Assembly (NCBI RefSeq): GCF_900302455.1
Contig: NZ_ONZG01000022.1
Span: forward strand, 1-38,619
DNA: 38,619 bases
Reading direction: 5' to 3'
DNA from: Falsiruegeria mediterranea M17
Lineage (GTDB): Bacteria > Pseudomonadota > Alphaproteobacteria > Rhodobacterales > Rhodobacteraceae
Below, piece by piece: positions 3,956 to 22,895 of this stretch. The position numbers and the translations under genes are program-made. Under the pieces are notes generated by a model. The model did not search any database, had not been told where the DNA came from, and worked only from the letters and a program-made list of their open reading frames with translations. How positions within the stretch are numbered: the stretch's first letter is position 1; every line of letters begins with the position of its first letter.

Positions 3956-4081
3956 TTGGTCCTCCCCAGGCACTTTTGTCACAAGCTGCGCCATTTCTTG
4001 CCAGAACAAGAAATGGCGCGCCCTATGTCAACAGTTTTCTCTCCGATCACCGAAACCCGGCGTGGAGTCACGGCTTCAAGC

Positions 4082-6289
4082 TCAGGCCGCCGCCTTCGAT
4101 TGTGAACCGAAACGCGCGTAGAACCCCTCCCCCGCTGCCGCGATATCGCGCAGCAGCTTGGGCGGCTCGAACGTTGCCCCGTGTTTCAAGGCCAGCTCTT
4201 CGCCCAAACGCACGGCTTTGCCCGCGCCAAGGATATCGAGGTACGAGAATGGCCCGCCCGACCAGGGCATGAAGCCCCAGCCCAGTATGGCACCGACATC
4301 GCCCTCGCGAATGTCCAGAAGCACGTCATCTTCCAACGCGCGCACCGCCTCGAAACTCTGACTCAGCGCAAGGCGGTCCATTACCTCCTGCACATCGGGC
4401 TGATCCTCCGCCCTTGGGAACTTCTCGGCCAGACCAGGCCAAATTCCCCGCCTCTTACCCGCCTCGTCATAGTCGTAATAACCCGCCTTGGTCTTCTTGC
4501 CATAGCGCCCAGCCTCATAAAGGTATTCGACCACCTCTTCGGTGCCCGTGGACTGATAGGCATCCCCCATCGCCGCCCGCGTGGCCTTGCCGATCCGGTA
4601 AGCCAGGTCAATCGCGGTCTCGTCCCCCAATTGCAGCGGCCCCAGCGGCATACCCATCTGCTTGGCCGCGTTTTCGATCAGCGCCGGGTTCACCCCTTCG
4701 CACAGCATCCGCAGACCCTCGTTCATGTAAGGCACGATGCAGCGATTGGCATAGAAGAAGCGCGCATCGTTCACGACGATCGGCGTCTTGCGTATCTGGC
4801 GCACGAAATCGAGCGCCTTGGCCACGGCCTCGTCCCCGGTGTCGCGACCCTTGATGATCTCGACCAGCGCCATCTTTTCGACGGGCGAAAAGAAATGGAT
4901 GCCGATGAAGCGGCCTGCATCGCAGCTCGCCTTGGCAAGATCGGTGATCGGCAGGGTCGAGGTGTTGGTGGCAAATATCGCACCCTCTCCCAGCTGCGCT
5001 TCGGCCAGTTTGTTCACTTCCGCCTTCACGCCGACATCTTCGAACACCGCTTCGACCACCAGATCGCAGCCTTTGAGCGCGGCGTAGTCGGTGGTTGCGG
5101 TGATCCGGTCCAACACTGCGGCTTTCTTTTCAGCCGTGCTGCGCCCACGGGCGATGGCCTTGTCCAGAATTGTCTCGGAATAGGCCTTGCCCTTGTCGAC
5201 GGCCTCCTGGCTCTGGTCGATCAGCACGACCTCGATCCCGGCTTTGGCCGACACATGGGCAATCCCCGCGCCCATCAGGCCTGCGCCCAGAACCCCCAGC
5301 TTTTGCACCCGCATATCCGGCACGCCAGCGGGGCGGTTTGCGCCTTTTTCCAGCGCCTGTTTGTTGATGAACAGCGATTTGATCATCGCTGCCGAGGACG
5401 GATCCATCATGACCGAGGTCATCCAGCGCGCCTCGATCTCAAGTGCTACGTCAAACGGCACCAGCGAGGCCTCGTACATCACCGCCAACAACGCCTTGGG
5501 AGCCGGGTAGGCGCCCTTGGTCTGGCCGTGCAGCATGGCCGCAGCGCCAACATAGTTCATCATCCCGGCAGGATGATAGGCATGCCCGCCGGGCAGCTTG
5601 AAACCCTTTTTGTCCCAGGGCTTGACGATATCGGCATCGCTCGCACCCCGCACCCAGTCCTTGGCGCGCGAAATCAGATCATCAGCAGGCACCACCTCAT
5701 CAAGATAGCCCGCTTTTGCCGCCTTGTCGGCAGACAGCATCTTGCCCTGGCTCAGCAGTTGCATGGCATTCGCCATGCCGACCTTATGCAGCATCCGAAC
5801 GGTGCCACCGCCACCGGGGAAAATGCCCACAAGGATCTCGGGCAGGCCGAATTTCGGCCCCGGGCGATCCGACACAAAAACCCGGTGACAGGCCAGCGCC
5901 ACTTCGATACCGATCCCGGCGGCTGTGCCGGGCAAGGCGGCGGCGATGGGCTTGCCGCCTTTCAGGGTTTTCGGGTCCATACCGCCGCGCTCGATCTTGC
6001 GCAGGATGCGGTGGCCATGCATCACATTGTCGAAAATCCCCTGGGCGGGGTTTTCCCCCGCGCTGACACGCGCCGCGCCCAGTTCGTTCAGATCCATGCC
6101 CCCGGCAAAATCGGGCTTGGCCGAGGTGATCACTGCGCCCTTGATATTGTCGTCACCCAGCACCGTGTCGATATGCGCGTCAAGTTCGACAAACCCTTGC
6201 GACGACATCACGTTCATTGCCTTTTCGGCAACGTCCCAGGTGATGATAGCGATACCGTCTTCGTCTACGTTCAAATGAAATTCAGCCAT
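4082..6289 (-). CDS. Bifunctional enoyl-CoA hydratase/3-hydroxyacyl-CoA dehydrogenase (FadJ/FadB type)
   Basis: A 735-residue multifunctional beta-oxidation protein. Residues 1 to about 190 are a crotonase domain, with both catalytic glutamates in place (E129 in GIGIEVALACH and E151 in GLPEILVGIFPGGGGT). The NAD-binding 3-hydroxyacyl-CoA dehydrogenase domain begins near 328 (GVLGAGLMGAG) and carries NTSTLPI and the catalytic histidine in GIHFFSPVEKM. The C-terminal 3HCDH domains follow. It hydrates 2-enoyl-CoA and oxidises the product to 3-ketoacyl-CoA. AAGGAG precedes the ATG. The thiolase gene ends 12 bases upstream, the usual paired arrangement. Which chain length it uses is not evident. 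Confidence 0.95.
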   Translation of the reverse strand: MAEFHLNVDEDGIAIITWDVAEKAMNVMSSQGFVELDAHIDTVLGDDNIKGAVITSAKPDFAGGMDLNELGAARVSAGENPAQGIFDNVMHGHRILRKIERGGMDPKTLKGGKPIAAALPGTAAGIGIEVALACHRVFVSDRPGPKFGLPEILVGIFPGGGGTVRMLHKVGMANAMQLLSQGKMLSADKAAKAGYLDEVVPADDLISRAKDWVRGASDADIVKPWDKKGFKLPGGHAYHPAGMMNYVGAAAMLHGQTKGAYPAPKALLAVMYEASLVPFDVALEIEARWMTSVMMDPSSAAMIKSLFINKQALEKGANRPAGVPDMRVQKLGVLGAGLMGAGIAHVSAKAGIEVVLIDQSQEAVDKGKAYSETILDKAIARGRSTAEKKAAVLDRITATTDYAALKGCDLVVEAVFEDVGVKAEVNKLAEAQLGEGAIFATNTSTLPITDLAKASCDAGRFIGIHFFSPVEKMALVEIIKGRDTGDEAVAKALDFVRQIRKTPIVVNDARFFYANRCIVPYMNEGLRMLCEGVNPALIENAAKQMGMPLGPLQLGDETAIDLAYRIGKATRAAMGDAYQSTGTEEVVEYLYEAGRYGKKTKAGYYDYDEAGKRRGIWPGLAEKFPRAEDQPDVQEVMDRLALSQSFEAVRALEDDVLLDIREGDVGAILGWGFMPWSGGPFSYLDILGAGKAVRLGEELALKHGATFEPPKLLRDIAAAGEGFYARFGSQSKAAA

Positions 6290-6301
6290 GCATCCAGCTC
6301 C

Positions 6302-7516
6302 TTATACGCGTTCCAGAATGGTGGCCGAGCCCATGCCGGCGGCCACGCACAGGGTTGCCAGACCGGTTTCCTTGTCGGCCCTCTCCATTTCGTCCAACAG
6401 ATGCGAGATCAGCATGGCGCCGGTCGCCCCCAGCGGATGGCCCATGGCGATGGCGCCGCCATTCAGGTTGACCTTTTCATGATCCACATCAAAGGCCTGC
6501 ATGAAGCGCAGCACCACGGCGGCGAAGGCCTCGTTCACCTCAAAGAGGTCGATGTCGCCGATCTCCATACCGTTTTCGCGCAGGATCTTTTCGGTCACTG
6601 GGACTGGGCCGGTCAGGTTGATGGTCGGGTCGGTGCCGATCTTGGCCATGGATTTGATGCGGGCGCGCGGGGTCAGGCCGTTACGCTCGCCGAACTCTTT
6701 CGAGCCGATCAGCACTGCCGCCGAGCCGTCGACGATACCTGACGAATTGCCCGCGTGATGCACATGGTTGATTCGCTCCAGATGCGGGTATTTCAGCAAG
6801 GCCACGGCATCAAAGCCGGGCATCACCTCGCCCTGTTCCTTGAAAGCGGGTTTCAGCGCCCCGAGAGACTGCATGTCCGTGCCCCGGCGCAGATATTCAT
6901 CATGATCTAGAATGGTCAGCCCATTGCGATCCTTCACCGGCGCTATGGAGCGCTCAAAACGGTTCTCGTCCCAGGCCTTTGCCGCGCGGCGCTGACTCTC
7001 CACCGCGTAGGCGTCACATTCGTCACGAGTAAATCCGTATTCGGTGGCGATGATATCGGCGGAGATCCCCTGAGGCACGAAATAGCTTTTCATCGCCAAG
7101 GTCGGGTCGGCCGCAATCGCGCCGCCGTCCGAGCCCATCGGCACCCGGCCCATCATTTCGACCCCGCCCGAGATATAGGCAGAGCCTACCCCGGCCTTGA
7201 CCTGAGCCGCACCCAGATTCACCGCCTCAAGCCCCGAGGCGCAAAAGCGGTTGATCGAAATGCCGGGAAGCTGTTCGCCCAGATCCGAGTTCAACACCGC
7301 GCTTCGCGCAAGGCAGGCTCCCTGCTCACCCACTTGCGTGACATTACCCCAGATCACGTCCTCGACCTGAGTAGCATCAAGATCATTGCGATCTTTGATC
7401 GTGTTCAACATTTCGGAGGACAGGTCCAGCGCTGTGACTTGGTGCAGGCTGCCGTCCTTGCGCCCCTTGCCGCGCGGGCTGCGGATTGCGTCATAGATAT
7501 AGGCGTCTTGGGTCAT
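6302..7516 (-). CDS. Acetyl-CoA C-acyltransferase (thiolase)
   Basis: A 404-residue thiolase that cleaves 3-ketoacyl-CoA to acetyl-CoA and a shortened acyl-CoA. The nucleophilic cysteine is C92 in NRFCASGLEAV. The C-terminal half has the NGGAIAMGHPLGATGA histidine motif and the second active-site cysteine in LCVAAGMGSA. The start at 7516 (MTQDAYIYDA) fits the family N-terminus and has AAAGGGA upstream; the frame stays open to 7567, which would overlap the preceding gene. It lies between the large acyl-CoA dehydrogenase gene (34 bases) and the fadJ-like gene (12 bases) in one leftward operon. Confidence 0.95.
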   Translation of the reverse strand: MTQDAYIYDAIRSPRGKGRKDGSLHQVTALDLSSEMLNTIKDRNDLDATQVEDVIWGNVTQVGEQGACLARSAVLNSDLGEQLPGISINRFCASGLEAVNLGAAQVKAGVGSAYISGGVEMMGRVPMGSDGGAIAADPTLAMKSYFVPQGISADIIATEYGFTRDECDAYAVESQRRAAKAWDENRFERSIAPVKDRNGLTILDHDEYLRRGTDMQSLGALKPAFKEQGEVMPGFDAVALLKYPHLERINHVHHAGNSSGIVDGSAAVLIGSKEFGERNGLTPRARIKSMAKIGTDPTINLTGPVPVTEKILRENGMEIGDIDLFEVNEAFAAVVLRFMQAFDVDHEKVNLNGGAIAMGHPLGATGAMLISHLLDEMERADKETGLATLCVAAGMGSATILERV

Positions 7517-7550
7517 TCGTTGTCCCTTTCGTGAAATCTGTCGTGCCAGC

Positions 7551-9329
7551 TCAGAAAGCTGCGGCATCCGGCGCCATCACCGTTTCCGGCCCGGCCTGAA
7601 TGCGTTTGAGATGCATGCGCGTCATCGGCAGATGTCGGTTGAAATAGTGACGAACGGTCAGGAGCTTTTGGGTGTAAAACGCTGCATCACCGGTTCCGGC
7701 CTCCAACGCGGCCTGCGCTGCCTCGGCGCTGAGCGCCAGCATGTAGCCCATGGTCAGATGCCCCATCAGATGCAGGAAATCGGTCGACCCGGCCAGCGCG
7801 GCATTCGGATCTTTCATACCGTTCTGCATCATGTATTGACCGGCGCTCTGGAAATCTCCCAGCCCTGCCATAAGTGGTTTTCCCACCATGTCGGTCAGAG
7901 CTTCATTCTGGATCAGACGGTCAGCCAGCCCCTTGATCATAACGCCATAGGCCATGGTGTGTTTGCCGCCATCGGCACCGAGTTTCCGACCGACGAGGTC
8001 GAGCGCCTGCACGCCGTTCGCGCCCTCGTAGATCTTGGCGATCCGCACGTCGCGCACGAACTGCGACATGCCCCATTCTTCGATGTATCCATGCCCGCCC
8101 AGAACCTGCTGTGCATCGGTGGCGGCCTCATATCCCTTGTCGCTGGAAAAGGCCTTGAACACGGGCGTCACAAGCGACAGCAGACCTTGCGCACCTGCAT
8201 CATCGGTGCGCGACACCCGATCGGCCTGCATGGTGCACCAATAGGCAAAGACCCGGGCCCCTTCGATGAAGCTGCGCTGATCCATCAGGGTGCGCCGGAT
8301 ATCGGGGTGCACGATGATCGGGTCGGCCGGTCCATCGGGGTTCGCGGGTCCGGTAACGGCCCGCATCTGCAGACGTTCGCGGGCATAGGCCACCGCATTC
8401 TGATACGCCGCCTCGGCGATGCAATACCCCTGTGCGCCGGTGCCAATCCGCGCCTCGTTTACCAATGTGAACATCGCACTCATACCCTTGTTGGGTTGGC
8501 CCAGAAGATAGCCGGTGGCGCCTTCAAAGTTCATTTCACAAGTGGCATTGCCGTGGATGCCCATTTTGGTTTCCAACCGGCCTGCGCGCACGGCGTTGCG
8601 CTCACCAAGGCTATCATCGTCATTCACCAAGTATTTGGGCACGATGAACAGCGACACACCCTTGATCCCCTCGGGGCCGCCGGGAATTTTCGCCAGCACA
8701 AGGTGGATGATGTTGTCGCCCATCTCGTGATCACCTGCCGAGATGAAGATCTTGGTGCCGGTGATCTTGTAGCTGCCGTCGTCCTGAGGCTCGGCGCTGG
8801 TGCGCATCAGGCCCAGATCGGTGCCGCAATTGGGCTCGGTCAGGTTCATCGTACCGAACCACTCACAGTTCGCCATCTTGGGCAGATAGGTGTGCTTTTG
8901 CGCCTCTGTTCCGTGCGCAAAGATGGTGTTCCAGGCACCGTGCGTCAGCCCGCCATACATCACCATCGCGTGGTTCGCCGAGGAAAAGCATTCGCCCGCC
9001 GCCATGTGCATCAATTTGGGCAAGCCCTGCCCGCCATAATCCACATCAAGATCAAGCGATGTCCACCCGCCCTCGCGCAGAACATTGATTGCCTCGGGAA
9101 AACCGTTTGGCACCTGCACCTTGCCGTCCACAAGGCTGGTGCCCTCCTGATCGCCCACGCGATTCAAGGGGGCCAGCACGTTCGAAGCGATCTTGCCGGC
9201 CTCTTCGAGGACCGGACCCGTCAGGTCGGGGGTCAGGTCTTCGTAGCCCGGAATGTCTGCCTGTGAGACTTTCAGAGCCTCGTGCAGAACGAAATCAATA
9301 TCCCTTAGCGGTGCTGTGTAAGTCGGCAT
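7551..9329 (-). CDS. Acyl-CoA dehydrogenase, long form with C-terminal extension
   Basis: A 592-residue acyl-CoA dehydrogenase of the class with an extra C-terminal helical domain. It shows the flavin segment [19 protein letters not shown], the middle-domain [12 protein letters not shown], and the catalytic base in [19 protein letters not shown]. Residues after about 470 match the C-terminal extension of this class. It introduces the 2,3 double bond into an acyl-CoA and would pass electrons to ETF, which is not encoded in the window. A strong GGAGG precedes the ATG. It is the first gene of the leftward operon and faces the kinase gene across a 144-base divergent promoter region. Confidence 0.94.
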
Positions 9330-9363
9330 TCTTGCCCTTCCTCCATGACGAATCTCAATGTTT

Positions 9364-9380
9364 TGTCATATTGTGTGTAA
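9364..9380. promoter_or_regulatory. Weak match to the recurring TGWCAT-N5-ATGNCA site
   Basis: TGTCAT followed after five bases by GTGTAA, which keeps four of six positions of the second half-site. It lies in the 144-base divergent promoter region between the two main beta-oxidation operons, which is where a shared operator would be expected. Taken alone the match is weak; the better copies at 14237, 21023, 21142 and 23631 give it some weight. Confidence 0.3.
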
Positions 9381-9473
9381 ATACTTCTTGAGATACATGG
9401 CAAGGCTCAATATGCTGACGGCCAATTAACGCGGCGGCAGTTTCAATGCCGATAGCAGAAAGGCAAACCGCCA

Positions 9474-10472
9474 ATGGATGCAGAAACGGCCACCAAGGCC
9501 CTGAGGTTGGCAACAGGTAGCTGCGAGACGGTTTCAGCGGTCGCGCCCCTGTCTGGTGGTGTGTCGAACCTGACATACCTTCTGACGCTGTTTTCGGGCG
9601 CGCGACTGGTCATGCGCACGCCACCGCCCGGGCAGCGGTCGGGGAATGCCCATAACATGATCCGCGAGGCCCGTGTGCTCGAAGCGGTGCATCCGCTGTT
9701 CCCTGAAGCGCCCGCCATTGTCGGTTACAGCGAAGACCCCTCGGTCACCGGCGATCAGTTCATGATCATGGCCCAGATCGACGGGCGCATCCTGCCCCCC
9801 GGCAGCCCGTTCGAGGTAAGCCCCGATCAGGCCCGCACCCTGTGCGAAAACTTCGTCGACGGATTAGCGCGGCTGCACGAGGCCGACCTTACCGACGCCG
9901 TGCGCGCAGCGTTTGGCGACCCGCAGGGGTTTGTCGCGCGTCAGGTGGCCGGATGGTCGCGGCGATACGAAAAGATCGGGCTGGACAACCCGCGCAGCGC
10001 CCTGCGCGACTGGCTGTCTGCCAACATCCCGCCTGATCCGGACCGCGCCTCGATCCTGCACAATGACTACAAGTTCGACAATATGGTGCTGGACCGAGAC
10101 GATCCGACCCGGATCATCGGCGTGCTCGACTGGGAACTCTCGGGCCTCGGAGATTCGTTCATGGATCTCGGCAATGCGCTAGCCTATTGGGTCGAGGCCG
10201 GCGATCCGCATGCACTGCAGCGCTTCAAGCGCGGCCCGACGGATCTGCCCGGCATGATGAGCCGCGACGAGATCATCGATGCCTATTGCACAGCGAGAGG
10301 ATTCGACCGCCCCGCAAACATGAATTTCTATCAGTCGATGGGCCTCTTCCGTCTCGCCGTCATCGCATTGCAGGTGCACGTGCGCGTGGCCGGTGGTGTT
10401 GGCAAGCCAAGCCCTTTCCTTGATGCCGCGTTGGCTTTGCTGGATCGCGCCGAAGACTTCGCAGGAGTATAG
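9474..10472 (+). CDS. APH-type kinase, candidate hydroxyacyl-CoA kinase (LvaA/ACAD11-N-like)
   Basis: A 332-residue protein of the aminoglycoside-phosphotransferase fold. The kinase motifs are intact: a glycine-rich LSGGVSNLTY loop near 27-35, the Brenner motif HNDYKFDN (H196, D198, N203), and the metal-binding DWE (D219-E221). An antibiotic role is unlikely because the next gene, three bases downstream, is an acyl-CoA dehydrogenase. This pairing corresponds to human ACAD10/ACAD11 (kinase fused to dehydrogenase) and to LvaA with LvaC of the Pseudomonas levulinate pathway, where the kinase phosphorylates the 4-hydroxyl of a 4-hydroxyacyl-CoA. The family match is seen in sequence; the substrate is inferred. 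AAAGG lies upstream of the ATG. Confidence 0.88.
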   Translation: MDAETATKALRLATGSCETVSAVAPLSGGVSNLTYLLTLFSGARLVMRTPPPGQRSGNAHNMIREARVLEAVHPLFPEAPAIVGYSEDPSVTGDQFMIMAQIDGRILPPGSPFEVSPDQARTLCENFVDGLARLHEADLTDAVRAAFGDPQGFVARQVAGWSRRYEKIGLDNPRSALRDWLSANIPPDPDRASILHNDYKFDNMVLDRDDPTRIIGVLDWELSGLGDSFMDLGNALAYWVEAGDPHALQRFKRGPTDLPGMMSRDEIIDAYCTARGFDRPANMNFYQSMGLFRLAVIALQVHVRVAGGVGKPSPFLDAALALLDRAEDFAGV

Positions 10473-10475
10473 ACC

Positions 10476-11717
10476 ATGGATTTTGCGCCTTCTGCAAAAG
10501 CACAGGATTTCGCACAACGCCTGACCGCCTTCATGGAAGAACATGTCTATCCGGCGGAACAGGTTTACCACGACCAGCACGTCCAGCTTGGTGACAGATG
10601 GGCCGTGCCGCCGATCATCGAAGAGCTCAAGGAAAAGGCCCGCTCGGCCGGGCTTTGGAATCTGTTCTTGCCCGATGAACGTTTCGGCGCAGGGTTGTCT
10701 ATTCTTGAATACGCTCCTTTGGCGGAAATCACGGGCCGCTGCCATATCGCACCGGAAGTGTTCAATTGCGCTGCCCCTGACAGCGGCAACATGGAAACGT
10801 TGTCGCTTTACGGCACGCCAGAACAGCAGGACCAATGGCTGCGGCCTTTACTGGATGGCAAGATTCGCTCGGCGTTCTTGATGACCGAGCCTCAGGTCGC
10901 ATCGAGTGATGCCACGAATATCGAATGCCAAATCCGACGCGACGGTGACGAATACGTGATCAACGGACGCAAGTGGTGGTCTTCTGGTGCGGGCGATCCG
11001 CGCTGCGCGATCTTTATCGTTATGGGCAAGACCGACCTCGATGCCGCAGCTCACGCACAACAAAGCATGGTGCTTGTTCCCGCCGATACGCCCGGCGTGA
11101 CGATCGAGCGTCACCTGCCTGTCTTTGGCTATGACGACGCGCCGCACGGACATATGGAAGTGTCCCTGAAAGATGTCCGCGTCCCGGCCACGAACATCCT
11201 TTTGGGCGACGGCCGCGGCTTTGAGATTGCTCAGGGCCGATTGGGACCAGGGCGCATTCACCACTGCATGCGTTCGATCGGGGCCGCCGAACGGGCGCTG
11301 GAAATGATGACCGAAAGGCTGCTTAGCCGCGAGGTTTTCGGCAAGGCCATCGGCATGCATTCGGTCTGGGAAGAGCGCGTCGCCAATGCACGGCTAGATA
11401 TAGAAATGACCCGGCTCATCTGCCTGAAGGCGGCCAGGATGATGGGCACGGTTGGCAACAAGGCGGCGAAGGACGAGATCGCCATGATCAAGATCGCGGC
11501 GCCGTCGATGGCGCTTCGGGTGATCGACGACGCGATCCAGTCCTTCGGCGGCGCGGGCGTGTCTGATGATACGCCATTGGCCCAGATGTGGGCTGGCCAG
11601 CGCTCGTTGCGTCTGGCCGATGGCCCGGACGAAGTGCATCGCCGCGCGGTGGCGCGATCCGAATTCAAACGCGCCGCCGGGCGTTTGGGGATCAATATCA
11701 GGGAGATCAGGAAATGA
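10476..11717 (+). CDS. Acyl-CoA dehydrogenase family protein (ACAD10/11 or LvaC-like)
   Basis: A 413-residue acyl-CoA dehydrogenase fold protein with [32 protein letters not shown], the [23 protein letters not shown] segment, [31 protein letters not shown] and a C-terminal [12 protein letters not shown]. These are typical of the ACAD10/11 branch. In that branch the enzyme can turn a 4-phosphoacyl-CoA made by the partner kinase into an enoyl-CoA that enters beta-oxidation. Whether this protein does so or is a plain dehydrogenase cannot be settled by reading. GGAG precedes the ATG. It starts three bases after the kinase gene stop and overlaps the next gene by ATGA, indicating translational coupling. 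Confidence 0.92.
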
Positions 11718-12454
11718 GCGCAAAGAACGTTCTCGTAACAGGGGCATCGTCAGGATTGGGCGACCAGTTCTGCCGCACACTGGCGGCAAATGGCTATACC
11801 GTCATTGCAGCCGCCCGCCGCAAGGACCGACTGGAGAGCTTGTGCAATGACATCTCAGAAGCCGGCGGCGTGGCGCATCCTCTCGCGATGGATGTCTCGG
11901 ATGTGGAAAACTTTGCCATCGCATTGGACGAAGCCGAAGCGATGGCCGGACCGATCACCTGCCTGATCAACAACGCCGGCACCTCGGTCAGCAAATTCGC
12001 CACCGACATGACGCCCGAGGATTTCGATGCCGTTATGGGGCTCAATCTTCGGGGCCCCTACTTCTTGTCTACCGAGCTGGCCCGACGCTGGATCGCGCGC
12101 AACACAGGCGGCCGGATCGTCAACATCGGCTCGCTTTCCGACAGTCGCGCGATGCCGGGCCACACGGTCTATGGCACGTCAAAGGCGGCGATTGCACGAC
12201 TGACCCAGCAGATGGCGCGGGAATGGATCAACAAGGGCATCAACGTCAATGCGCTGGCGCCGGGATATATCCGCACCGAACTGAACGCGCCCTATTTCGA
12301 CAGCCCAAATGGGCAAGCCGTCATCGCGCAATTCCCGCGCCGACGGGTGGGGGAACCAGCGGATCTGGACAAGGCCATCCTGTATCTGTGTGACCCCGAC
12401 CAGCGTTTCCTGACTGGTCAGGTTCTGCATCTGGACGATGGACAAGGATTATAA
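11714..12454 (+). CDS. Short-chain dehydrogenase/reductase (SDR)
   Basis: A 246-residue classical SDR. It has the cofactor motif TGASSGLG (residues 9-16), LINNAG near 84-89, and the catalytic set N111, S140, Y153 and K157 (YGTSK). ARR after the second strand suggests NADP preference, which is inference. The start overlaps the dehydrogenase stop codon by ATGA. By position and family it matches LvaD, which interconverts 4-keto- and 4-hydroxyacyl-CoA, but SDRs are too broad for the substrate to be assigned. The last codons overlap an alternative upstream start of the sulfatase gene. Confidence 0.92.
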
Positions 12455-12458
12455 ACCG

Positions 12459-14213
12459 ATGAAATTCACGCTCGCCGCAACCTTTGCAATCGCCGCTGCC
12501 ATCCCTGCGATGGCGCAAGAGGCCGCCCGTCCAAACATCCTGCTGGTATTGTTGGACGACGCTGGTTTCATGGATTTCGGTGCCTATGGCGGCGATGCCG
12601 CCACCCCCAATATCGACGCGTTGGCCGATCGGGGCGCGATGTTTTCTAGGTTTTATATGTCGCCGCAATGCGGCCCGAGCCGGGCGATGCTGATGACCGG
12701 GCGCGACAATCACGAGGTCGGGTTAGGCTCGATCCCTGAAACCCTTTCCCCTGATATGCGCCAATACCCCGGCTATTCAATGCGTTGGGAAGACGGGTTG
12801 CCAACCATCGCCTCGCGCCTGAATGAAGAAGGATACCAGACCTTTATCTCGGGCAAGTGGGGCATCGGCGATATCGGGCAGAACCTGCCGCACCGTTTCG
12901 GCTTTGACCGCTCTTTCGTGATCGACGCCACCGGGGGCAGCAATTACGACCACACGCCTTATGTGCCACTTTATAATACCACAAATTGGTATGAGGATGG
13001 CAAACCGACTACCCTGCCTGAGGGGTTCTACTCGTCTGAGGGCATCGTCGACCGGATGATCAATTATCTCGACGAGGCCGACCCGCAAAAACCGTTCTTC
13101 AGCTTCCTGTCCTTCCAAGCAATCCACATACCGATCCAGGTCGCGCCGGAGTACCGCGACCGCTATGCAGGACGTTTTGATGAAGGCTGGGAGGCGATGC
13201 GCAAGCAGCGGCTGGAACGCGCTGTCGACTTGGGACTGGTGCCCGAGAGCACGGAATTGGCCCCCCTGCCCGCTTCGTCGCGCGACTGGGAGAATCTGAG
13301 CCCCGCGGACCAGAGCTATTGGGCGCGGTCTATGCAGGTCAATGCTGGGATGCTGGAGGCCGCGGATCACCATTTGGGCCGCCTGCTGGCGCATCTCGAG
13401 GCGCAAGGTCAGCTCGACAACACTCTTGTTATCGTGACCTCGGACAACGGACCGGAATCCAGTGGGATCGGCAATGCACCCGGCGCCGAAGGCGTGTTTC
13501 AGCGCTGGTGGATGCGGCAAACCGGGTGGAACCAGGACTTCGAAACACTGGGGGAGCGCAACACCATGACCTTTATCGGCGAGGAATGGGCCTCGGTTTC
13601 GGCCGCGCCTTTTGCGCTGTTCAAATTCACCGCGACCGAGGGCGGGTTGCGCGTGCCGCTTGTCATTGCGGGTCCGGACCTGCCTCAAACCGGCATTCTG
13701 GACGGCCGCGCCCATGTCACCGACCTGGTGCCAACCATGCTGGATATTGCCGGGCTGGACCCGGTAGCGCCCGACATTCGCGGCCGCAGCCTCTTGCCCA
13801 TGCTCAGTGGTGCGCGCGCCGCGGTCTACGGCGACGACGAGGCGGTTGGGTTCGAGGTCAGTGGCAACGCGGCACTCTATCGTGGCAACTGGAAAATCTC
13901 GCGGATTCCGACACCGCTGGGTGATGGCAAATGGCATATGTATGACCTCGCGACCGATCCGGGCGAGACCACGGACCTTGCAAGCGCCCGTCCCGAGCTG
14001 TTTCAGGACATGCAGAACGAATATCTCAGCTATGCCGACGAGGTTGGCGTGGTGCCTGTGCCTGCGGACTACAACCCGTTCAAGCAGATCAAGAAAAACG
14101 TGGTCAGCAAAATGGCGCGCGAACACTGGCCTGGACTGCTTGTTGCCGGGCTGGTCTTGCTTACGATCCTGTTCTTTTCCTTCCGCTGGGTCGGGCGCCG
14201 GTTGCGCCCTTGA
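12459..14213 (+). CDS. Sulfatase (type I, secreted, C-terminal membrane anchor)
   Basis: A 584-residue sulfatase that would hydrolyse an organic sulfate ester. The start at 12459 is chosen because it gives a clean signal peptide ending AIPAMAQ and has AAGGA 10 bases upstream. The metal-binding DD lies in LLVLLDDAGFMDFGAYGG. The formylglycine signature is CGPSRAMLMTGR with Cys71 as the residue to be converted, SGKWGIG supplies the active-site lysine, and VTSDNGPE completes the metal site. Residues from about 553 form one hydrophobic segment ending in RWVGRRLRP, so the enzyme is probably tethered to the inner membrane facing the periplasm. It follows the SDR gene by four bases. Maturation needs the formylglycine-generating enzyme encoded at 22004-22891. 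Confidence 0.94.
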   Translation: MKFTLAATFAIAAAIPAMAQEAARPNILLVLLDDAGFMDFGAYGGDAATPNIDALADRGAMFSRFYMSPQCGPSRAMLMTGRDNHEVGLGSIPETLSPDMRQYPGYSMRWEDGLPTIASRLNEEGYQTFISGKWGIGDIGQNLPHRFGFDRSFVIDATGGSNYDHTPYVPLYNTTNWYEDGKPTTLPEGFYSSEGIVDRMINYLDEADPQKPFFSFLSFQAIHIPIQVAPEYRDRYAGRFDEGWEAMRKQRLERAVDLGLVPESTELAPLPASSRDWENLSPADQSYWARSMQVNAGMLEAADHHLGRLLAHLEAQGQLDNTLVIVTSDNGPESSGIGNAPGAEGVFQRWWMRQTGWNQDFETLGERNTMTFIGEEWASVSAAPFALFKFTATEGGLRVPLVIAGPDLPQTGILDGRAHVTDLVPTMLDIAGLDPVAPDIRGRSLLPMLSGARAAVYGDDEAVGFEVSGNAALYRGNWKISRIPTPLGDGKWHMYDLATDPGETTDLASARPELFQDMQNEYLSYADEVGVVPVPADYNPFKQIKKNVVSKMAREHWPGLLVAGLVLLTILFFSFRWVGRRLRP

Positions 14214-14236
14214 TCGGCCCTTACCCTAGCATAATA

Positions 14237-14253
14237 TGTCATACGAGATGCCA
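14237..14253. promoter_or_regulatory. Candidate TetR operator, TGTCAT-N5-ATGCCA
   Basis: The two half-sites are separated by five bases and lie 17 bases before the ATG of the DJ-1-type gene, between it and the sulfatase gene. The same arrangement with the same half-sites recurs at 21023-21039, and close variants occur at 21142 and 23631. A regulator bound here would overlap the ribosome site or the start of the transcript. This suggests the DJ-1-type gene has its own promoter. Confidence 0.55.
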
Positions 14254-14270
14254 ACTTAAGGAGAACCCCA

Positions 14271-15092
14271 ATGTCCTGGCTGAAAATCATCCTCATCGCA
14301 ATTCCTGTTCTCACCATCGTGGTCTATTTCGGACTGCCGCGGGCGCTGAACATGATGGGCCTTCATCCGCACTACGATATCCCCGAATATGATCTGGCCG
14401 GCAAACGCGCCCTGATCATCGCCACCAGCCAGGACACGCTGGGCGACACTGGCAAGGAAACTGGCGTCTTCGGTTCGGAATTGACCGTGCCCTACTATGC
14501 CTTCCTTGACGCGGGCATGGAGGTCGACCTCGTCTCGATCAAGGGCGGTGAGATCCCGGTTGAGCCGCGCTCGATGGGCTGGCCTCTGGGCACAGAGGCC
14601 GATTTCCGGTTCAAGAAAGACACGGTTGCGATGGCCAAACTGACGAACTCGATCTCTGTCAAAGATGTCGACATCACCAAATATGACGCGATCTTCCTTT
14701 CGGGCGGTTGGGGCGCAGCCTATGACTTTGCTCAATCCGAGGAACTGGCAGCGCTGGTGACCGCAGCCAACGCCGATAACGACGTGATCGGATCTGTCTG
14801 CCACGGGGCGCTGGGGCTGGTGAATGCCAAAGACACCGATGGAACGCCGCTGATTGAGGGGCGCACCGTGACCGGTGTGACCGATACCCAGATCGACCAG
14901 CTGGGCATTTCGATAACCCCCAAACACCCTGAAACCGAACTGCGCGCCGCCAAGGCCAACTTCGAGGCCGACACGGCCTTCCGCGACATGTTCGCCAACC
15001 ATGTCAGCGTTGATGGCCGCCTTGTGACGGGTCAGAACCAAAACAGCGGTGCCGAGGCCGCACACCGGATGATGGAATTGCTGTCCAAGTGA
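14271..15092 (+). CDS. Membrane-anchored DJ-1/PfpI-type (class I glutamine amidotransferase-like) protein
   Basis: A 273-residue protein with one N-terminal transmembrane segment (WLKIILIAIPVLTIVVYFGL) followed by a DJ-1/PfpI-fold domain. Visible are ALIIATSQDTLGDTGKETGVFGSEL, typical of the Hsp31-like branch, the YDAIFLSGGWGAAYDF strand, and the nucleophile elbow SVCHGALGLVNAK with the conserved Cys-His pair. Members act as glyoxalase III/deglycase-type enzymes or chaperones; the specific function is unknown. The anchor is unusual, and by the positive-inside rule the domain may face the periplasm. AAGGAG gives a strong ribosome site, and a hairpin terminator follows at 15108. Confidence 0.85.
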   Translation: MSWLKIILIAIPVLTIVVYFGLPRALNMMGLHPHYDIPEYDLAGKRALIIATSQDTLGDTGKETGVFGSELTVPYYAFLDAGMEVDLVSIKGGEIPVEPRSMGWPLGTEADFRFKKDTVAMAKLTNSISVKDVDITKYDAIFLSGGWGAAYDFAQSEELAALVTAANADNDVIGSVCHGALGLVNAKDTDGTPLIEGRTVTGVTDTQIDQLGISITPKHPETELRAAKANFEADTAFRDMFANHVSVDGRLVTGQNQNSGAEAAHRMMELLSK

Positions 15093-15107
15093 GAAAGACA
15101 GCCCATG

Positions 15108-15133
15108 GGCAGTCGGCGAGATCGTCGGCTGCC
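15108..15133 (+). terminator. Stem-loop terminator after the DJ-1-type gene
   Basis: Twelve-base arms with two G-U wobbles and a two-base loop, followed by TTT, starting 15 bases after the stop codon at 15092. It probably ends the DJ-1-type transcript before the GST gene. Confidence 0.6.
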
Positions 15134-15184
15134 TTTCAGCCCTCCCTGAGATGCAATTCAACCGATTAGCGAAAGAAACGTCCA

Positions 15185-16198
15185 ATGACCGATTAAAAAC
15201 TCTATGGCGGGTCGATGTCGCCCTTCTCGATGAAAATGCGCGCCTACATGCGGTATCGTCGCATCCCGTTTCAATGGATCACGGACGAACGCGCCAATAC
15301 AGTCGCGCAAACCAAAGTCGAAACCTATATGGTCCCGGTTCTGGAAGATCCCGAAGGGGTATTTCGCAACGATTCCACCTTTATGATCGATCTGCTCGAA
15401 GAGCGGTTCCCCGACAGACGTGCCGAGCCGGAAGATGAGGCCGATGCCTTCCTTGCGTATCTTATCGAAGATTTCGCCGACGAATGGCTACTTTGGCCGT
15501 TCTTCATGATGCGTTGGCGGCATGAGGAGGATCGCAAGTTCAACAGCCAATGGATCGTTTACGAATATCTGAGAGGTGACACGACAACGCCGCAATTTGA
15601 CGGTTTTGCCACCATGTGGGCGGCTCGCCAGACCAAGCTCGTGCGCGCGACATGCGGCGAGCAAGAGATGTTCCCGCTGCATGACGAAAGCCTTGATGCG
15701 CTGTTGAAGATCACGGAACGCGCCTTTACCTCTGGCATGTTTCTTTTTGGCACGCGACCGTCGCGCGCTGAATTCGCGCTTTATGGAATACTTTCACAAC
15801 TCATTCTTGATCACACGCCTTCGGCGCACTTACGCCAGAACTTCAACTTCACCTATCGCTGGACGACTTTGATGGAAGACCTCAGCGGCCGCGAAGGTGC
15901 GTGGCAATCCTTGTCGGCAGATCCTGAACGTCTCAAGTCCTCTCCTGTGATTGATCTGCTCAGGCTGAGCGCAAAATACCACTTGCCGCTTTTGCGCGCG
16001 AACAGGCGCGCGATGGACGCAGGAGAGAAAATGCTCAGTTTCCCGATCGATGACAGCACCTTTACCCGACGGCCCGCAGAGCGGCATCAAGGTTGCCTAC
16101 CTGCCCTGCAGGATCGCTACCAAAGCCTGTCCGACGACGCGAAGGCCAATTTGAACAGCGTGCTGACGGATACGGGATGCTTGGACTATCTGGCCTAG
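15185..16198 (+). CDS. Long glutathione S-transferase family protein, stop codon at codon 4
   Basis: A GST-fold protein of about 327 residues when read from the ATG at 15215, with a thioredoxin-like N-terminal domain and a helical C-terminal domain (LIEDFADEWLLWPFFMMRW, LFGTRPSRAEFALYGIL). The natural start appears to be 15185: ATG ACC GAT then TAA at 15194-15196, then in the same frame KLYGGSMSPFS, the expected first strand and SPFS active-site serine motif. The intact neighbour at 19323 begins MTDQVVFYGG, so a sense codon has probably become TAA. Re-initiation at ATG 15215, 18 bases after the stop, could make a shortened protein lacking the first strand. It may be a recent pseudogene or a sequencing error. 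Confidence 0.75.
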
Positions 16199-16268
16199 GC
16201 CCGACAGACCCTACAGGCCCGGCAGCGCAGCAAAGGCACCGAAAAGACTCTGATCTTGGAACAAATCA

Positions 16269-16964
16269 ATGACAAAGCTTCCACCCCAACTCTCGATCGG
16301 CGTGCCTGCCGGTGCGATTGCGCCGGCGGCCATGGCGGTGGCTCCCTATTGGGCATGGCCCTGGATTGCTGCTGCGGCACTCTATGCTCTGTTTTTGAGC
16401 CACTATCAGAATTGGCGCGGCCCGCTGACACAGGCCGAAGTCGACGACGTCCTCAAGACCATCCAGCCCAAGAATGATCCTGACGGGTTTCGCGCCTTTC
16501 TCGAAACCGATGATGGCGGTGAGTTTTTCATGCTCAATCTCATGCTGTTTCCCGACGGCAAGATCGCGCATCCTGATACCGGCGCGCCGATCGAGCCGCG
16601 GACACTGGTGCAAAGCTACTCCCGACCATTTATCAAACAGCTGCTCCTGCGCGGCGGGCACCCTACACTTTTAATGATGCGTCATGGCGGGGATGTTGAC
16701 AGTTGGGGGTCGACCGCCGAGAGCGGCGCACAATGGGGAGTGACCAACGTGATGCGCTATCGCAGTCGCCGCGATCTGGCAAATATGGCCGCCATGTCTG
16801 CCTTTGCGGGCATCCACCAGTTTAAGCGCGCAGCCATTCTCGAAAACATCAGCTACCCGAACAAGATGATGATGACGGGTTTTGCCGGTCCGCGGCTTTT
16901 CATGGCGACGGCGTTAATCCTAGCCGCAGCGCTCGGCAATCTCGTCATTCAGGCGCTAAGTTAG
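16269..16964 (+). CDS. Unknown membrane protein with DUF1330-like segment
   Basis: A 231-residue protein I do not firmly recognise. It has hydrophobic segments at about 10-45 (possibly two passes) and at 203-228, with a soluble part between. The stretch GGEFFMLNLMLFPDGK and the later GAQWGVTNVMRYRSRRDLANM resemble the dimeric alpha/beta-barrel DUF1330/EthD type of small oxygenase-like or isomerase-like proteins, here set between membrane anchors. The ribosome site is weak. It lies 70 bases after the GST gene and 61 bases before the DUF2855 gene on the same strand, so it may be co-transcribed with both. The function is unknown. Confidence 0.65.
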   Translation: MTKLPPQLSIGVPAGAIAPAAMAVAPYWAWPWIAAAALYALFLSHYQNWRGPLTQAEVDDVLKTIQPKNDPDGFRAFLETDDGGEFFMLNLMLFPDGKIAHPDTGAPIEPRTLVQSYSRPFIKQLLLRGGHPTLLMMRHGGDVDSWGSTAESGAQWGVTNVMRYRSRRDLANMAAMSAFAGIHQFKRAAILENISYPNKMMMTGFAGPRLFMATALILAAALGNLVIQALS

Positions 16965-17025
16965 CGAGAGGCGATATCTCCCAAGTTAATGATTTCGGGT
17001 TCTGACCCAGAATGAGGATTTTTGC

Positions 17026-18111
17026 ATGACCACGATCACCGAGCTTTGGACCAACCGCACCGATTTGCGCGACACCAAAACCGGCACGCTCCCCGCCCCC
17101 GAACTGAAAGAGGGCGAAGTTCTGATGAAAATCGAGAAACTCGGCCTGACCGCTAACAACGTCAGCTATGCCGTGACCGGCGATAAGATCGGCTATTGGG
17201 GTTATTTCCCCGCTGATGAAAACTGGGGCAAGGTGCCTGCTTGGGGCTTTGCCCATGCCGTAGAGAGCAACTGCGCTGAAATTGAGCCAGGCGAACGGGT
17301 CTGGGGCTTCTTCCCGCTGGCCAGCCATGTGGTGCTACGCCCGAGCAAGGTGACCGACAGCCGCTTTTTTGACGCTGCCGATCACCGCAGTGCGCTGCCG
17401 CCGATGTATAACGCCTATATGCGCACGGGGCCGGAGCCTGAAATCCTGAACCAGTTTGAGGATGAGCGCTGCATCCTTTTCCCGCTCTTCGCGACCTCTT
17501 ATATTCTGTATGACTTTCTGATCGACAATGATTTCTTTGGCGCGGATCAGGTGTTGATTGGCTCGGCATCCTCCAAAACCGGCTTTGGTCTGGCGCATCT
17601 TCTGTTCAACGACAAGACGGTGGGCAAACGTGTTGCTGGGCTCACGTCGCAGGGCAATGTCGCATTTTGCGAAAAGCTCGGATGTTTTGACGAGATCACT
17701 GTCTATGGCGCGGAAAACGCGTTGGACGCATCTGTCAAATCCGTTTTTATCGACATGTCTGGAGATGTGCCTTTGACCATACGCATGCACGCGCATTTCA
17801 CCGACAATATTCTGGCCACATGGGTTGTCGGTGCCACCCATTGGGAGGACGGCGGCAAACCGCCCAGCGACCTGCCGGGCGCAAAACCCGCCTTCTTCTT
17901 TGCCCCCACCCATATGGGCAAGCGCGACAAGGAATGGGGCCCGGGCAAGTTCTGGCAAAAGGCTTTTACCGCCAGTATCGGCGTGACACAGGACACCGCG
18001 TCGACGCTGGACATCGTGGCGCAGAACGGTGTCGACAAGGTCGCCGCGTCCTGGCTTGCGCTTTTGGACAACAAAGTGCCCGGCAGCTCAGGGTTGATTG
18101 TCAGTATCTAG
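17026..18111 (+). CDS. DUF2855 family protein (MDR/quinone oxidoreductase-like)
   Basis: A 361-residue protein matching DUF2855, a branch related to zinc-free medium-chain dehydrogenases. The N-terminal half has LKEGEVLMKIEKLGLTANNVSYAVTGDKIGYW and WGFAHAVES followed by GERVWGFFPLASHV. The second half has VLIGSASSKTGFGLAHLL, a dinucleotide-fold-like segment, then VAGLTSQGNVAFCEKLGCFDEI. Members are annotated without a known reaction. The context (three long GST genes, two sulfatases, CoA enzymes) suggests an NAD(P)H-dependent reduction in the same catabolic route, but that is inference. It is transcribed toward the leftward GST gene, whose stop lies 51 bases away. Confidence 0.85.
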   Translation: MTTITELWTNRTDLRDTKTGTLPAPELKEGEVLMKIEKLGLTANNVSYAVTGDKIGYWGYFPADENWGKVPAWGFAHAVESNCAEIEPGERVWGFFPLASHVVLRPSKVTDSRFFDAADHRSALPPMYNAYMRTGPEPEILNQFEDERCILFPLFATSYILYDFLIDNDFFGADQVLIGSASSKTGFGLAHLLFNDKTVGKRVAGLTSQGNVAFCEKLGCFDEITVYGAENALDASVKSVFIDMSGDVPLTIRMHAHFTDNILATWVVGATHWEDGGKPPSDLPGAKPAFFFAPTHMGKRDKEWGPGKFWQKAFTASIGVTQDTASTLDIVAQNGVDKVAASWLALLDNKVPGSSGLIVSI

Positions 18112-18162
18112 GATCAGGACCTAGCCCAGAGCATTTCGCCTCCATCCGGTGCCAGGCCTGTG

Positions 18163-19323
18163 TCACAGGTTTTCTTGTTCCGAAGGTGCCTCAATCGGCT
18201 CCCATATCTCAAGATGGTCTTGCCACCCGACACGACGTGACACCCGCAGGTCGAGGAATGGTGCAAGGCCGCAACGCTCAAACAGGGTGCGCACTGTCGC
18301 TTGCGCCGCCTCGGGGGCATCATCGAAGGCGTCTGTCATGCGTTGCGAAAGGAAATGCCGGTAGGCCTTGACCGGCCCCGGCATCTTGGCCCCGCGCAGT
18401 TCGAATTGCGTAATTGCGAAAACCCGGTGGCCTTCGATCACCTCGTTGGGTTGTTTCGCCAGCCACTTATCACAATAGGCATGATGGGCGGCGTATTCGG
18501 CGGCGTATTCTTCGGCCACGTACTTAAGCAAAGACAGAAATGTGTCCGGCGGGTTTTCAAGATTCACCATGCCTGTGCCCCACGCCAGCGAAACAGCGTC
18601 CTCGATATCCTCGAACGCGTTCATCCGTTCGGTCCAGTCAAAGACAAAAGGCGCGCGTTCCTGCATCAGAGCCAGCGGGAGCCGGTCGCGCCCAAGGTGA
18701 GCAAACATCGGGCCAAACAGCGCGTAATCCGCGATTGTCGGACGCCCACCTAAGAGGTAGGGCATCACAGCGAAATGCGCGTTCAGCCGGCCGAGAAAGT
18801 CCAGATAGGCCGCCTCGATCTCCGCCGCGTTCTTGGCGTTTGCCCCGATCATCGCAGTATATGTGCGTAAGAGACCCGACAGCTTCTCGAAACCTGCGTC
18901 ACTTTCCGCTTCGTTTTTGCCCAACGGTAGGGCGTCGCGGAAAATATGCCGAACAAATGGCGTTTGCTCAGGTAAGTTCCAGCGATAGTGCATCGCTGGA
19001 CGCATGAGGCCCTCGTTGCCGAACAGATCGAATAGGCGGGCGACGACATTCAGTGCTTGGTCTTTGGGATAGACCGAAAACCGGCTCTGTCCTGAGGCCT
19101 CAAAGTGGTCAATGATGCGCGCGCCATCCTGCAACAGCGTGCCATCAGGCAGTTCCACCACAGGTATGATACGCCGCCCAATTGCGGGGTAGATTACCTT
19201 TAGAGCCCGCTCTGACCCCGGCGCGCGTTCCGTGAACGCAATGCGCTGATGGCGCAGATAGGACCGCACTCTTGCAGAGTATAGCGACAGCTTGCCGCCA
19301 TAAAAAACCACTTGGTCCGTCAT
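18163..19323 (-). CDS. Long glutathione S-transferase family protein (intact copy)
   Basis: A 386-residue GST-fold protein, the only one of the three long GSTs here that reads through intact. The N-terminal thioredoxin-like domain starts MTDQVVFYGGKLSLYS and includes IIPVVELPDGTLLQDGARIIDHFE. The helical domain includes YLLGGRPTIADYALFGPMFAHL. It has about 150 residues beyond a typical GST of 220, including a C-terminal region (VIEGHRVFAITQFELRGAKMPGPVKAYRHFLSQ) shared in outline with the two paralogues. AAAGGTG precedes the ATG. It starts 21 bases after the sulfatase stop, so the two are co-transcribed. It may conjugate or isomerise a product of sulfate ester cleavage with glutathione. Confidence 0.9.
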   Translation of the reverse strand: MTDQVVFYGGKLSLYSARVRSYLRHQRIAFTERAPGSERALKVIYPAIGRRIIPVVELPDGTLLQDGARIIDHFEASGQSRFSVYPKDQALNVVARLFDLFGNEGLMRPAMHYRWNLPEQTPFVRHIFRDALPLGKNEAESDAGFEKLSGLLRTYTAMIGANAKNAAEIEAAYLDFLGRLNAHFAVMPYLLGGRPTIADYALFGPMFAHLGRDRLPLALMQERAPFVFDWTERMNAFEDIEDAVSLAWGTGMVNLENPPDTFLSLLKYVAEEYAAEYAAHHAYCDKWLAKQPNEVIEGHRVFAITQFELRGAKMPGPVKAYRHFLSQRMTDAFDDAPEAAQATVRTLFERCGLAPFLDLRVSRRVGWQDHLEIWEPIEAPSEQENL

Positions 19324-19344
19324 GATTGTTCACCTTTCAGGCAG

Positions 19345-20988: not shown

Positions 20989-21022
20989 TGGCCTTGTCCT
21001 CCCTGACCGGGGCAATTTATTT

Positions 21023-21039
21023 TGTCATATCTAATGCCA
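21023..21039. promoter_or_regulatory. Candidate TetR operator, TGTCAT-N5-ATGCCA
   Basis: It has the same half-sites and spacer length as the site at 14237, and lies 34 bases upstream of the second sulfatase start in the divergent region shared with the third GST gene. A second copy follows at 21142 on the GST side, so each direction of transcription has its own site. Confidence 0.55.
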
Positions 21040-21141
21040 GTTTATCGTGGAAGTTGAAAAGCGCAAGCCCGGTGTCGTTGCGTAATTCCGCAGGGTACGT
21101 GCATGGCACCCACTGCATCGCAGCGCGCGATCCGCATATAT

Positions 21142-21158
21142 TGACATATAGCATGTCG
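21142..21158. promoter_or_regulatory. Candidate TetR operator, TGACAT-N5-ATGTCG
   Basis: A near-palindrome (TTGACAT and ATGTCGA flanking ATAGC) set inside a larger quasi-palindrome, 21133-21165, whose outer arms are CGCATAT and ATATGCG. It lies 17 bases before the original ATG of the broken GST gene, the same distance as the 14237 site from its gene. Confidence 0.5.
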
Positions 21159-21175
21159 ATATGCGCAAGGTCGAA

Positions 21176-22007
21176 ATGTCTGAATCAGCGAAACCAATCG
21201 AACTTCTTGGTGCACCGGCCTCGCCGTATACACGCCAGTGATCCCGCCACCCGGTTCCTTCAGGACATTATCGAGGATTACGCCGACGAATGGCTGAGCA
21301 AGATGATGTTCCACTATCGTTGGGCGGTGCCGGAAAAAAATGCCGATCATGTCGCGCCGCTGCTGGTCTACTGGATGATGCCCCAGGCCACGGAAGGCCC
21401 CGCCAATGCCTTTGCAGCAAGTTTTGCCGCTCGCCAGATCGGGCGACTTGGCGTCGTGGGGTCGAAAGATACGACCGCCGCGATCATCGAAGCCAGCTAC
21501 CTGCGTGTCCTCAAGCTTCTGGATAGCATCGTCGCGTCCCGGCCGTTCCTGTTCGGCACCCGCCCCTCGGCCGCCGATTTCGCCATTCTCGGCCAGTTCA
21601 CACAATTGCTGACGATCGAGCCGACCTCTGCCGCGATCGCGCGCGAAAACGCGCCGCGCCTGCGCGCCTGGATCGACCACCTGGAAGACGCTACCGGTTA
21701 CGCCGCTGACGAAAACGGCTGGCTGTCTCGCGACGAGGTGGCCACCACCCTGCGACCGTTGTTCTGTGAGATCGGCAAAACCTATGCGCCCTTCTTGCAG
21801 GCCAATGCCACCGCCCATGCGGCGGGTGAAAAACAGGTCACGTTAGAGATCGACGGAGCACCCTGGACACAGGCCACGTTCCCCTATCAGGCCAAATGCC
21901 TACGGGTTTTGCGCGACAGCTTCGCCGCGCTTTCGACGCAAGACCAGACCGCAGTGCGCGATGCATTCGACGGCACCGGCTGCGAAGTGTTAACGACACC
22001 CCCCTAA
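21176..22007 (+). pseudogene. Long glutathione S-transferase, internal out-of-frame deletion
   Basis: The original ATG at 21176 starts a normal GST N-terminus ending in the active-site segment (IELLGAPASPYTR), then hits TGA at 21239-21241. In another frame, from about 21230, the rest of a long GST continues: DPATRFLQDIIEDYADEWLSKMMFHYRW, ASRPFLFGTRPSAADFAILGQF, and the family's C-terminal extension ending CEVLTTPP at 22007. The missing part is most of the thioredoxin-like domain, roughly 60-80 residues, lost with a frame change near 21230-21245. An uninterrupted frame from 20988 covers the C-terminal part, but its first 80 codons are not GST-like. No functional GST can be made from this gene as it stands. 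Confidence 0.8.
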
Positions 22008-22891: not shown

Positions 22892-22895
22892 CCCG

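Follow-up and report, generated by a model that had tools for sequence, protein, structure and literature searches.

A candidate catabolic island for sulfate-ester lipids, apparently mobile among Rhodobacteraceae

We analyzed a 38,619-base window of Falsiruegeria mediterranea M17, which is the entire contig C3 (NZ_ONZG01000022.1) of a 5.28-Mb genome and encodes a kinase and an acyl-CoA dehydrogenase (ACAD) related to mammalian ACAD10/ACAD11 next to a sulfatase. Our reading, to which we assign a probability of about 0.5, is that most of the left two-thirds of the window is a horizontally moved Rhodobacteraceae catabolic island for sulfate-ester lipids. Family membership, intact catalytic motifs, conserved linkage and transfer are legible in the DNA. 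A preliminary description of positions 9474 to 14213 had proposed that sulfatases and hydroxyl-removal chemistry are joined here. The best clue to the substrate, a set of glutathione S-transferases (GSTs) and their dehalogenase neighbors, was missing from that account.

A kinase and ACAD pair probably for hydroxyl removal

Gene calls and family profile scans (Pfam, NCBIfam) of the window's proteins identified a run of four genes on the plus strand. An aminoglycoside phosphotransferase (APH)-fold kinase of the ACAD10/11-LvaA kind (9474..10472; PF01636, 145.7 bits), proposed to act on 4-hydroxyacyl-CoA, is followed by an ACAD of the ACAD10/11-LvaC type (10476..11717), proposed to eliminate phosphate from 4-phosphoacyl-CoA. 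A short-chain dehydrogenase/reductase (SDR; 11714..12454, YxxxK present, with the start chosen within the open frame 11588-12454) and type I sulfatase 1 (12438..14213; CGPSR, with a signal-like N-terminus by eye) complete the run. The kinase and ACAD genes are three bases apart, as had been described; the ACAD and SDR frames overlap by 4 bases, and those of the SDR and sulfatase 1 by 17. A divergent run on the minus strand encodes an ACAD with a PF12806 C-terminus and no HCMR motif (7551..9329), a thiolase (6302..7567) and a FadJ-type enoyl-CoA hydratase/3-hydroxyacyl-CoA dehydrogenase (4082..6289), the last two assigned by family profile, followed by an acyl-CoA synthetase (the CoA ligase, an AMP-ligase; 2027..4009; NF005714, 790.6 bits against a cut-off of 632) and an SCP2 domain protein (1718..2008; PF02036, 62.7 bits). 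All genes named in the preliminary description, including both sulfatases and a formylglycine-generating enzyme (FGE), are present.

Compared with solved structures, the ACAD scored 482.9 bits against ACAD11 and 459 against 4hr3, a putative bacterial ACAD; the next, a medium-chain ACAD, reached 134.1 bits. The ACAD carries a 12-residue motif segment at residue 255, and residues R255, R260, H263, C264, M265, R266 and D382 align to mouse ACAD11, with R255, H263, R266 and D382 corresponding to mouse R626, H634, R637 and D753 (the printed chain is numbered one lower than in the paper). In the alignment the HCMR motif, the extra upstream Arg and the catalytic Asp are all kept. According to PMC12440821, these features are specific to ACAD10/11 and LvaC, and are tied to the binding of 4-phosphoacyl-CoA and to catalysis. 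The full motif, with the upstream Arg and the Asp, was present in 69 of 73 matching rows of at least 38% identity (a few genes being counted twice), and in none of the 4 below 33%.

The best solved relatives of the kinase were 9o56 ('Aminoglycoside phosphotransferase', 201 bits), the ACAD11 kinase domain (124 and 120 bits) and 3dxp ('putative acyl-CoA dehydrogenase', 113 bits). Antibiotic kinases were far behind, the macrolide kinase at 29 bits and others lower. In the kinase, the catalytic Asp and its partner Asn correspond to D198 and N203, the Arg of the CoA region (R176 in PMC12440821) to R156, and the alphaC Arg-Glu pair to R64-E65; the last assignment rests on the pair itself, since R86 of that paper did not map by number, the printed chain having R83. 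Judged by closest solved structures, and not by a tree, the kinase does not group with unrelated APH families; nor does the ACAD group with ordinary dehydrogenases, another outcome that the preliminary description had set against itself. PMC11342911 reports that either ACAD10 domain can be replaced by bacterial orthologues. From these sequence comparisons, the chemistry class of the kinase and ACAD is well supported, and the pair is likely to perform hydroxyl removal.

The genome has a second ACAD10/11-type gene (G000:C22:469819-471000; L040, L119) at 57%, with HCMR present. No kinase match was found in the 20 kb fetched around it.

The island is shared between genera

A BLAST comparison of the window with 60 kb of strain EL53 (G038), which belongs to the same family but another genus, gave one hit: window positions 128..26327, 26,205 columns, 97.5% identity. 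For comparison, the longest pieces around the second ACAD10/11-type gene were 71% and 75% identical between the two genomes, and those around the dehalogenase gene 74-84%. Because the island is 97.5% identical across genera, compared with 71-84% in these two other stretches, the sequences point to horizontal movement of the 26.2-kb island between Rhodobacteraceae. Three further genomes carry the block with small gaps, whereas in EL53 it is unbroken: Tropicibacter sp. Alg240-R139 (94-99% identity), Planktotalea frisia SH6-1 (mostly 91-94%, with pieces of 72% and 83%) and Rhodobacteraceae bacterium SB2, where the block is in order (pieces of 81-93% and one short piece of 74%) and the two right-end genes, for the DSBA protein and the hydratase, lack a match. 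All four have the kinase-ACAD-SDR genes, both sulfatases and FGE. For the sulfatases and FGE of EL53, SB2 and P. frisia this was seen by protein match; the FGE of Tropicibacter is covered by a DNA match of 98% that spans the entire right part of the block. Among 394 genomes of the family, three ACADs (including the window's) were at least 99% identical and one was 77% identical. A block shared by five genomes indicates that the grouping of these genes is more than chance.

In EL53 a further set of genes starts about 0.3 kb past the shared block: a TRAP-type importer, a GntR regulator, a GST, a 781-aa sulfatase, an AMP-ligase and an ACAD with ARIQHCMR. This second cluster repeats the combination of sulfatase, GST, ligase and ACAD10/11-type enzyme and offers an importer; no further kinase match was found in that 20-kb stretch. 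It may have been acquired together with the island. Past it, genes at L037:14224-20000 appear BREX-like by eye.

Sulfatases, GST2 and the dehalogenase clue

To the right of sulfatase 1 the island continues with a DJ-1 protein, three GST-type frames, a DUF2855 protein, sulfatase 2, FGE, a regulator, a DSBA protein and an enoyl-CoA hydratase, all beyond the span first described. Type I sulfatase 2 (19345..21015, minus strand) has CAPSR and, by eye, an N-terminal membrane anchor, so the CxPSR motif is intact in both sulfatases. The sulfatase-modifying FGE (22004..22891, minus strand; PF03781, 194 bits) keeps the paired-cysteine motif GGSYLCGSNYC, whose cysteines we take to be the copper-binding ones. 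The closest solved structure to sulfatase 1 is the arylsulfatase 1hdh (377 bits).

GST2 (18163..19323, minus strand) is an unusual GST whose relatives recur near sulfatases and dehalogenases. These relatives are rare in the family, where 6 of 394 genomes have one at 1e-12; they are commoner in the class (49 of 289 at 1e-15), the window's genome being counted in both. Of 20 class loci, 7 had a sulfatase match (window queries, 1e-6), four of them 44-48% identical to sulfatase 2; one of the four, in L201, is a contig-edge piece that was unlisted in the Pfam search at 1e-15. We then measured proximity in 20 genomes picked as the best GST2 matches, using 64 GST rows, 98 sulfatase rows (two split pairs merged) and 60 dehalogenase rows at 1e-25. 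Eighteen of the 64 GSTs had a sulfatase no more than 5 kb away, against 1.19 expected under uniform placement; these cases spanned 10 genomes, 6 families and 17 distinct sulfatases. Nine lay as close to a dehalogenase-family gene (0.69 expected), spanning 7 genomes, 5 families and 8 distinct genes, of which 7 exceeded the NF002043 cut-off and the eighth that of NF002938. None of the 17 displayed ACAD10/11-type rows of the same genomes was near a sulfatase (Fisher p 0.01).

L195 and L197 have the order GST, dehalogenase, regulator, sulfatase; the island's own regulator (22896..23501, minus strand; TetR-like by eye, weak helix-turn-helix match) has matches near GST2 and the sulfatase in both. 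A dehalogenase adjoins the GST in L199, with no sulfatase match; the GST of L192 has a PRK03592-type dehalogenase at a distance of 4.3 kb on one side and a sulfatase on the other. A 2-kb insert in the P. frisia island encodes a dehalogenase and a metallo-beta-lactamase (MBL)-fold hydrolase. This dehalogenase (L047:17161-18078) scored 390.5 bits with NF002043 (cut-off 265) and 329 bits with the haloalkane dehalogenase 5esr, contains FCQDWGG, and is the sole NF002043 match of its genome at 1e-25. The MBL-fold hydrolase is 37% identical to the one beside GST2 and the sulfatase in L201.

Three weaker family GST loci (L180-L182) had no sulfatase match, and a plasmid search with GST2 returned one distant hit, in Pseudomonas mandelii, with no sulfatase annotated in the stretch shown. 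Structure models of DUF2855 and GST2 had pLDDT values of 28.8 and 47.3, too low to support a search by fold. A conserved protein beside GST2 and the dehalogenase (L195:8681-9385, L197:8520-9212, L199:10525-11193) is 65-85% identical among these loci, with no NCBIfam match for the two tested. At L198:7693-15316 a GST2 relative has an HCMR-bearing ACAD (49%) about 5 kb off, and no sulfatase match occurs in the 18 kb read.

A proposed pathway and its substrate

Each reaction, the reaction order, the cell compartment and the substrate are what we infer from these genes. Exported sulfatases matured by FGE would take off one or two sulfates, and the GSTs, together with the haloalkane dehalogenase in P. 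frisia, would handle further substituents, probably halogens. The SDR and ligase would yield an acyl-CoA, which ACAD, FadJ and thiolase would shorten until the freed hydroxyl sits at C4. The kinase would then phosphorylate the C4 hydroxyl and the ACAD10/11-type enzyme eliminate the phosphate to give a 2-enoyl-CoA, so that beta-oxidation could continue.

A specific substrate can be suggested, though we consider it unlikely: chlorosulfolipids, the polychlorinated sulfate-ester lipids of algae, for whose breakdown the island would be the first genetic system. The sulfatases would act on the sulfates, the GSTs and haloalkane dehalogenase on the chlorines, and the kinase and ACAD on the freed hydroxyl. 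Danicalipin A carries one sulfate at C14. The marine strain EL53 is listed with the associates of Eunicella gorgonians (PMC6316421). Chlorosulfolipids are reported to accompany blooms on the Eastern Pacific coast, to occur in coastal bloom waters and in mussels, and to range from C12 to C27 with up to 11 chlorines (PMC13413282); a chlorosulfolipid reported from the octocoral Dendronephthya has a C15 chain with a sulfate at C4 (PMC7767177). In a C15 chain, C4 is C12 from the other end; were the chain oxidised from that end, the hydroxyl would arrive at C4 after four cycles of beta-oxidation. More generally, even positions, such as this C12 or the C14 of danicalipin A, allow C4 to be reached by whole cycles from the acid end. 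In the open-licence literature, as far as its texts were accessible, we found no bacterial chlorosulfolipid catabolism.

How general is the sulfatase link?

We compared 60 further ACAD10/11-type neighborhoods of up to 20 kb each (20 next-best family rows, 20 best class rows and 20 picked by hand) with the window's proteins at E 1e-8; the window's two sulfatases were the only sulfatase queries, so distant sulfatases may escape. A kinase match was present in 40 of the 60, in 27 of them within 2 kb of the ACAD, and an FGE match in none. L079, the nearest diverged relative, encodes FadJ (70%), thiolase (79%), kinase (60%), ACAD (77%) and SDR (64%). Its genome has a dehalogenase on another contig; the 18 kb read there (L218) contain no match to a GST or a sulfatase. 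The window's genome contains 22 sulfatase rows, 20 of them outside the window; 17 stretches (L146-L162), covering 19 of the 20 and leaving out a weak row on C36, had no kinase or ACAD10/11-type match. The stretch shown around the closest plasmid sulfatase (Ruegeria, 38%) has neither a kinase nor an ACAD annotated. The co-occurrence with sulfatases that had been predicted for other genomes was found as a single mobile island in five genomes, the window's included, and elsewhere in one weak case among the 60 neighborhoods and in none of five distant kinase loci.

Several observations weigh against the reading as a sulfate-ester lipid island. The one sulfatase match among the 60 neighborhoods was only 27% identical, and L079 had none in the 56.6 kb read, its contig ending 1.3 kb from FadJ on the other side. 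The second EL53 cluster adjoins the island and so is not an independent case. The uniform-placement expectation for the GST neighbors is crude, since it takes no account of operon clustering or of relatedness among the genomes, two of which (G415 and G644) are congeners. A dehalogenase is present inside the island only in P. frisia; the copies of the window, Tropicibacter, EL53 and SB2 have none there. The window's genome (on another contig), Tropicibacter and EL53 each have one dehalogenase outside the island, and SB2 none; the loci in the window's genome and EL53 (L217, L219) had no GST or sulfatase match. At 1e-60 the dehalogenase occurs in 32 of 325 family genomes, including the window's, EL53 and an island-free congener (G073). 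Sulfatase substrates are unreadable from homology, and the argument from position would hold as well for any alkyl sulfate whose secondary hydroxyl is even-placed. Finally, the shared block holds no importer family. The earlier statement that no importer is visible stands for the families found in the island; beyond it, the TRAP importer of EL53 lies about 0.3 kb past the island end, and the window has an anion-transporter-like gene (33261-34913) outside the island. A phyletic link between island and dehalogenase was set aside as confounded, since G073 has the gene too, as does the genome of L079.

The island gives the impression of two modules joined together, one of kinase-ACAD-SDR with FadJ-thiolase and one of sulfatase-FGE-GST, and these could have independent functions: a salvage module for 4-hydroxy or 4-oxo acids, with a separate sulfatase-GST module that merely travels along. 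L079 has the first module with no sulfatase match in the part read, six families in the class sample have sulfatase-GST pairs, no notable kinase match appears at the four loci where sulfatase 2 has close relatives, apart from one of 26% in L195, and a sulfatase lies near ACAD10/11-type genes in just 1 of 60 neighborhoods. However, there is a 17-base overlap between the frames of the SDR and sulfatase 1, SB2 keeps the block order at its lower identities, and the adjoining cluster of EL53 again combines sulfatase, GST, ligase and an HCMR-type ACAD. We regard two independent functions as possible, if on the unlikely side. The sulfatases are genuinely joined to the kinase and ACAD, and the arrangement is inherited as one unit, but it looks young and composite.

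Two other substrates would assign the sulfatases a different role. For sterol or bile-alcohol sulfates, SCP2, SDR, thiolase and ligase would suit steroid side-chain beta-oxidation after sulfatase action, yet the scan of island proteins, which did not extend to the rest of the genome, found no steroid ring-degradation family, and the dehalogenase link would be left unexplained; we set this improbable reading aside on the first of these grounds. Halogenated aromatic sulfates, a class that includes algal bromophenol sulfates, would accord with the arylsulfatase 1hdh as the nearest solved structure to sulfatase 1 and with GSTs near dehalogenase-type genes elsewhere. In that case, however, a full fatty-acid-type beta-oxidation set and a pair for removing acyl-chain hydroxyls would be superfluous, and no ring-cleavage family was seen among the scanned island proteins, which makes aromatic sulfates very improbable.

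Other features of the window

At the left end of the island lies an alpha/beta hydrolase (438..1490, minus strand; PF00561). On the plus strand, sulfatase 1 is followed by a DJ-1/PfpI family protein (14271..15092), GST1 (15215..16198), a 231-aa protein with no Pfam family (16269..16964) and the DUF2855 protein (17026..18111; PF11017), which is medium-chain dehydrogenase/reductase (MDR)-like by eye. P. frisia has an MDR-type reductase in the place of GST1, and in the window and EL53 the GST1 match runs upstream of its ATG across a stop (15188-15215). The GST3 open frame (20988..22007, plus strand) is shorter at the N-terminus than its counterparts in SB2 and P. frisia, which have about 0.21 kb that the window lacks. 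A DSBA-domain protein (24060..25316) and an enoyl-CoA hydratase/isomerase (25358..26143), both on the plus strand, close the island.

The right third of the window (26810-38069), outside the block shared with EL53, contains conjugation-type genes for a lytic transglycosylase, VirB2/3-like and VirB4-like proteins and a relaxase. Among them is a tannase-family gene (30714-32285). The anion-transporter-like gene at 33261-34913 is of CitMHS/TrkA_C type and lies near the island.

Comparison with known systems

If our reading of a sulfate-ester lipid island is correct, sulfate-ester hydrolysis and ACAD10/11 hydroxyl-removal chemistry would be joined in a natural, transferable pathway, and GST2, sulfatase 2, the dehalogenase and the kinase-ACAD pair would be marker genes for bacteria consuming sulfated, perhaps chlorinated, algal lipids.

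In the Lva operon the LvaB gene lies between LvaA and LvaC. The three bases between the island's kinase and ACAD leave no room for such a gene, which bears out the earlier statement that an LvaB-like partner is missing at this place; an LvaB homologue elsewhere was not searched for. The island resembles the Lva (levulinate) operon of Pseudomonas putida (PMC12440821 and PMC11342911) in having an APH-type kinase and an ACAD10/11-type ACAD, accompanied by an SDR and a CoA ligase. It differs in that no gene separates kinase and ACAD, the ligase is in a divergent operon, and the set is joined to beta-oxidation genes, sulfatases, FGE and GSTs. With mammalian ACAD10/ACAD11 it shares the kinase and ACAD motifs, including HCMR, the extra Arg and the catalytic Asp, although here these are two separate proteins in a mobile bacterial island. 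The ACAD-SDR-phosphotransferase-histidine phosphatase operons of the S2214 and Ideonella plasmids also place ACAD, SDR and kinase side by side, but in another order, with the histidine phosphatase next to the kinase and no sulfatase annotated in the 20.8-kb stretches shown. The haloalkane dehalogenases of PRK00870 type (NF002043; 5esr) have a counterpart in the P. frisia island, whereas the other four copies lack one inside. As a case of mobile alkyl-sulfate catabolism, the island can be likened, by description only, to the plasmid-borne sodium dodecyl sulfate degradation module of Psychrobacter (PMC10779009).

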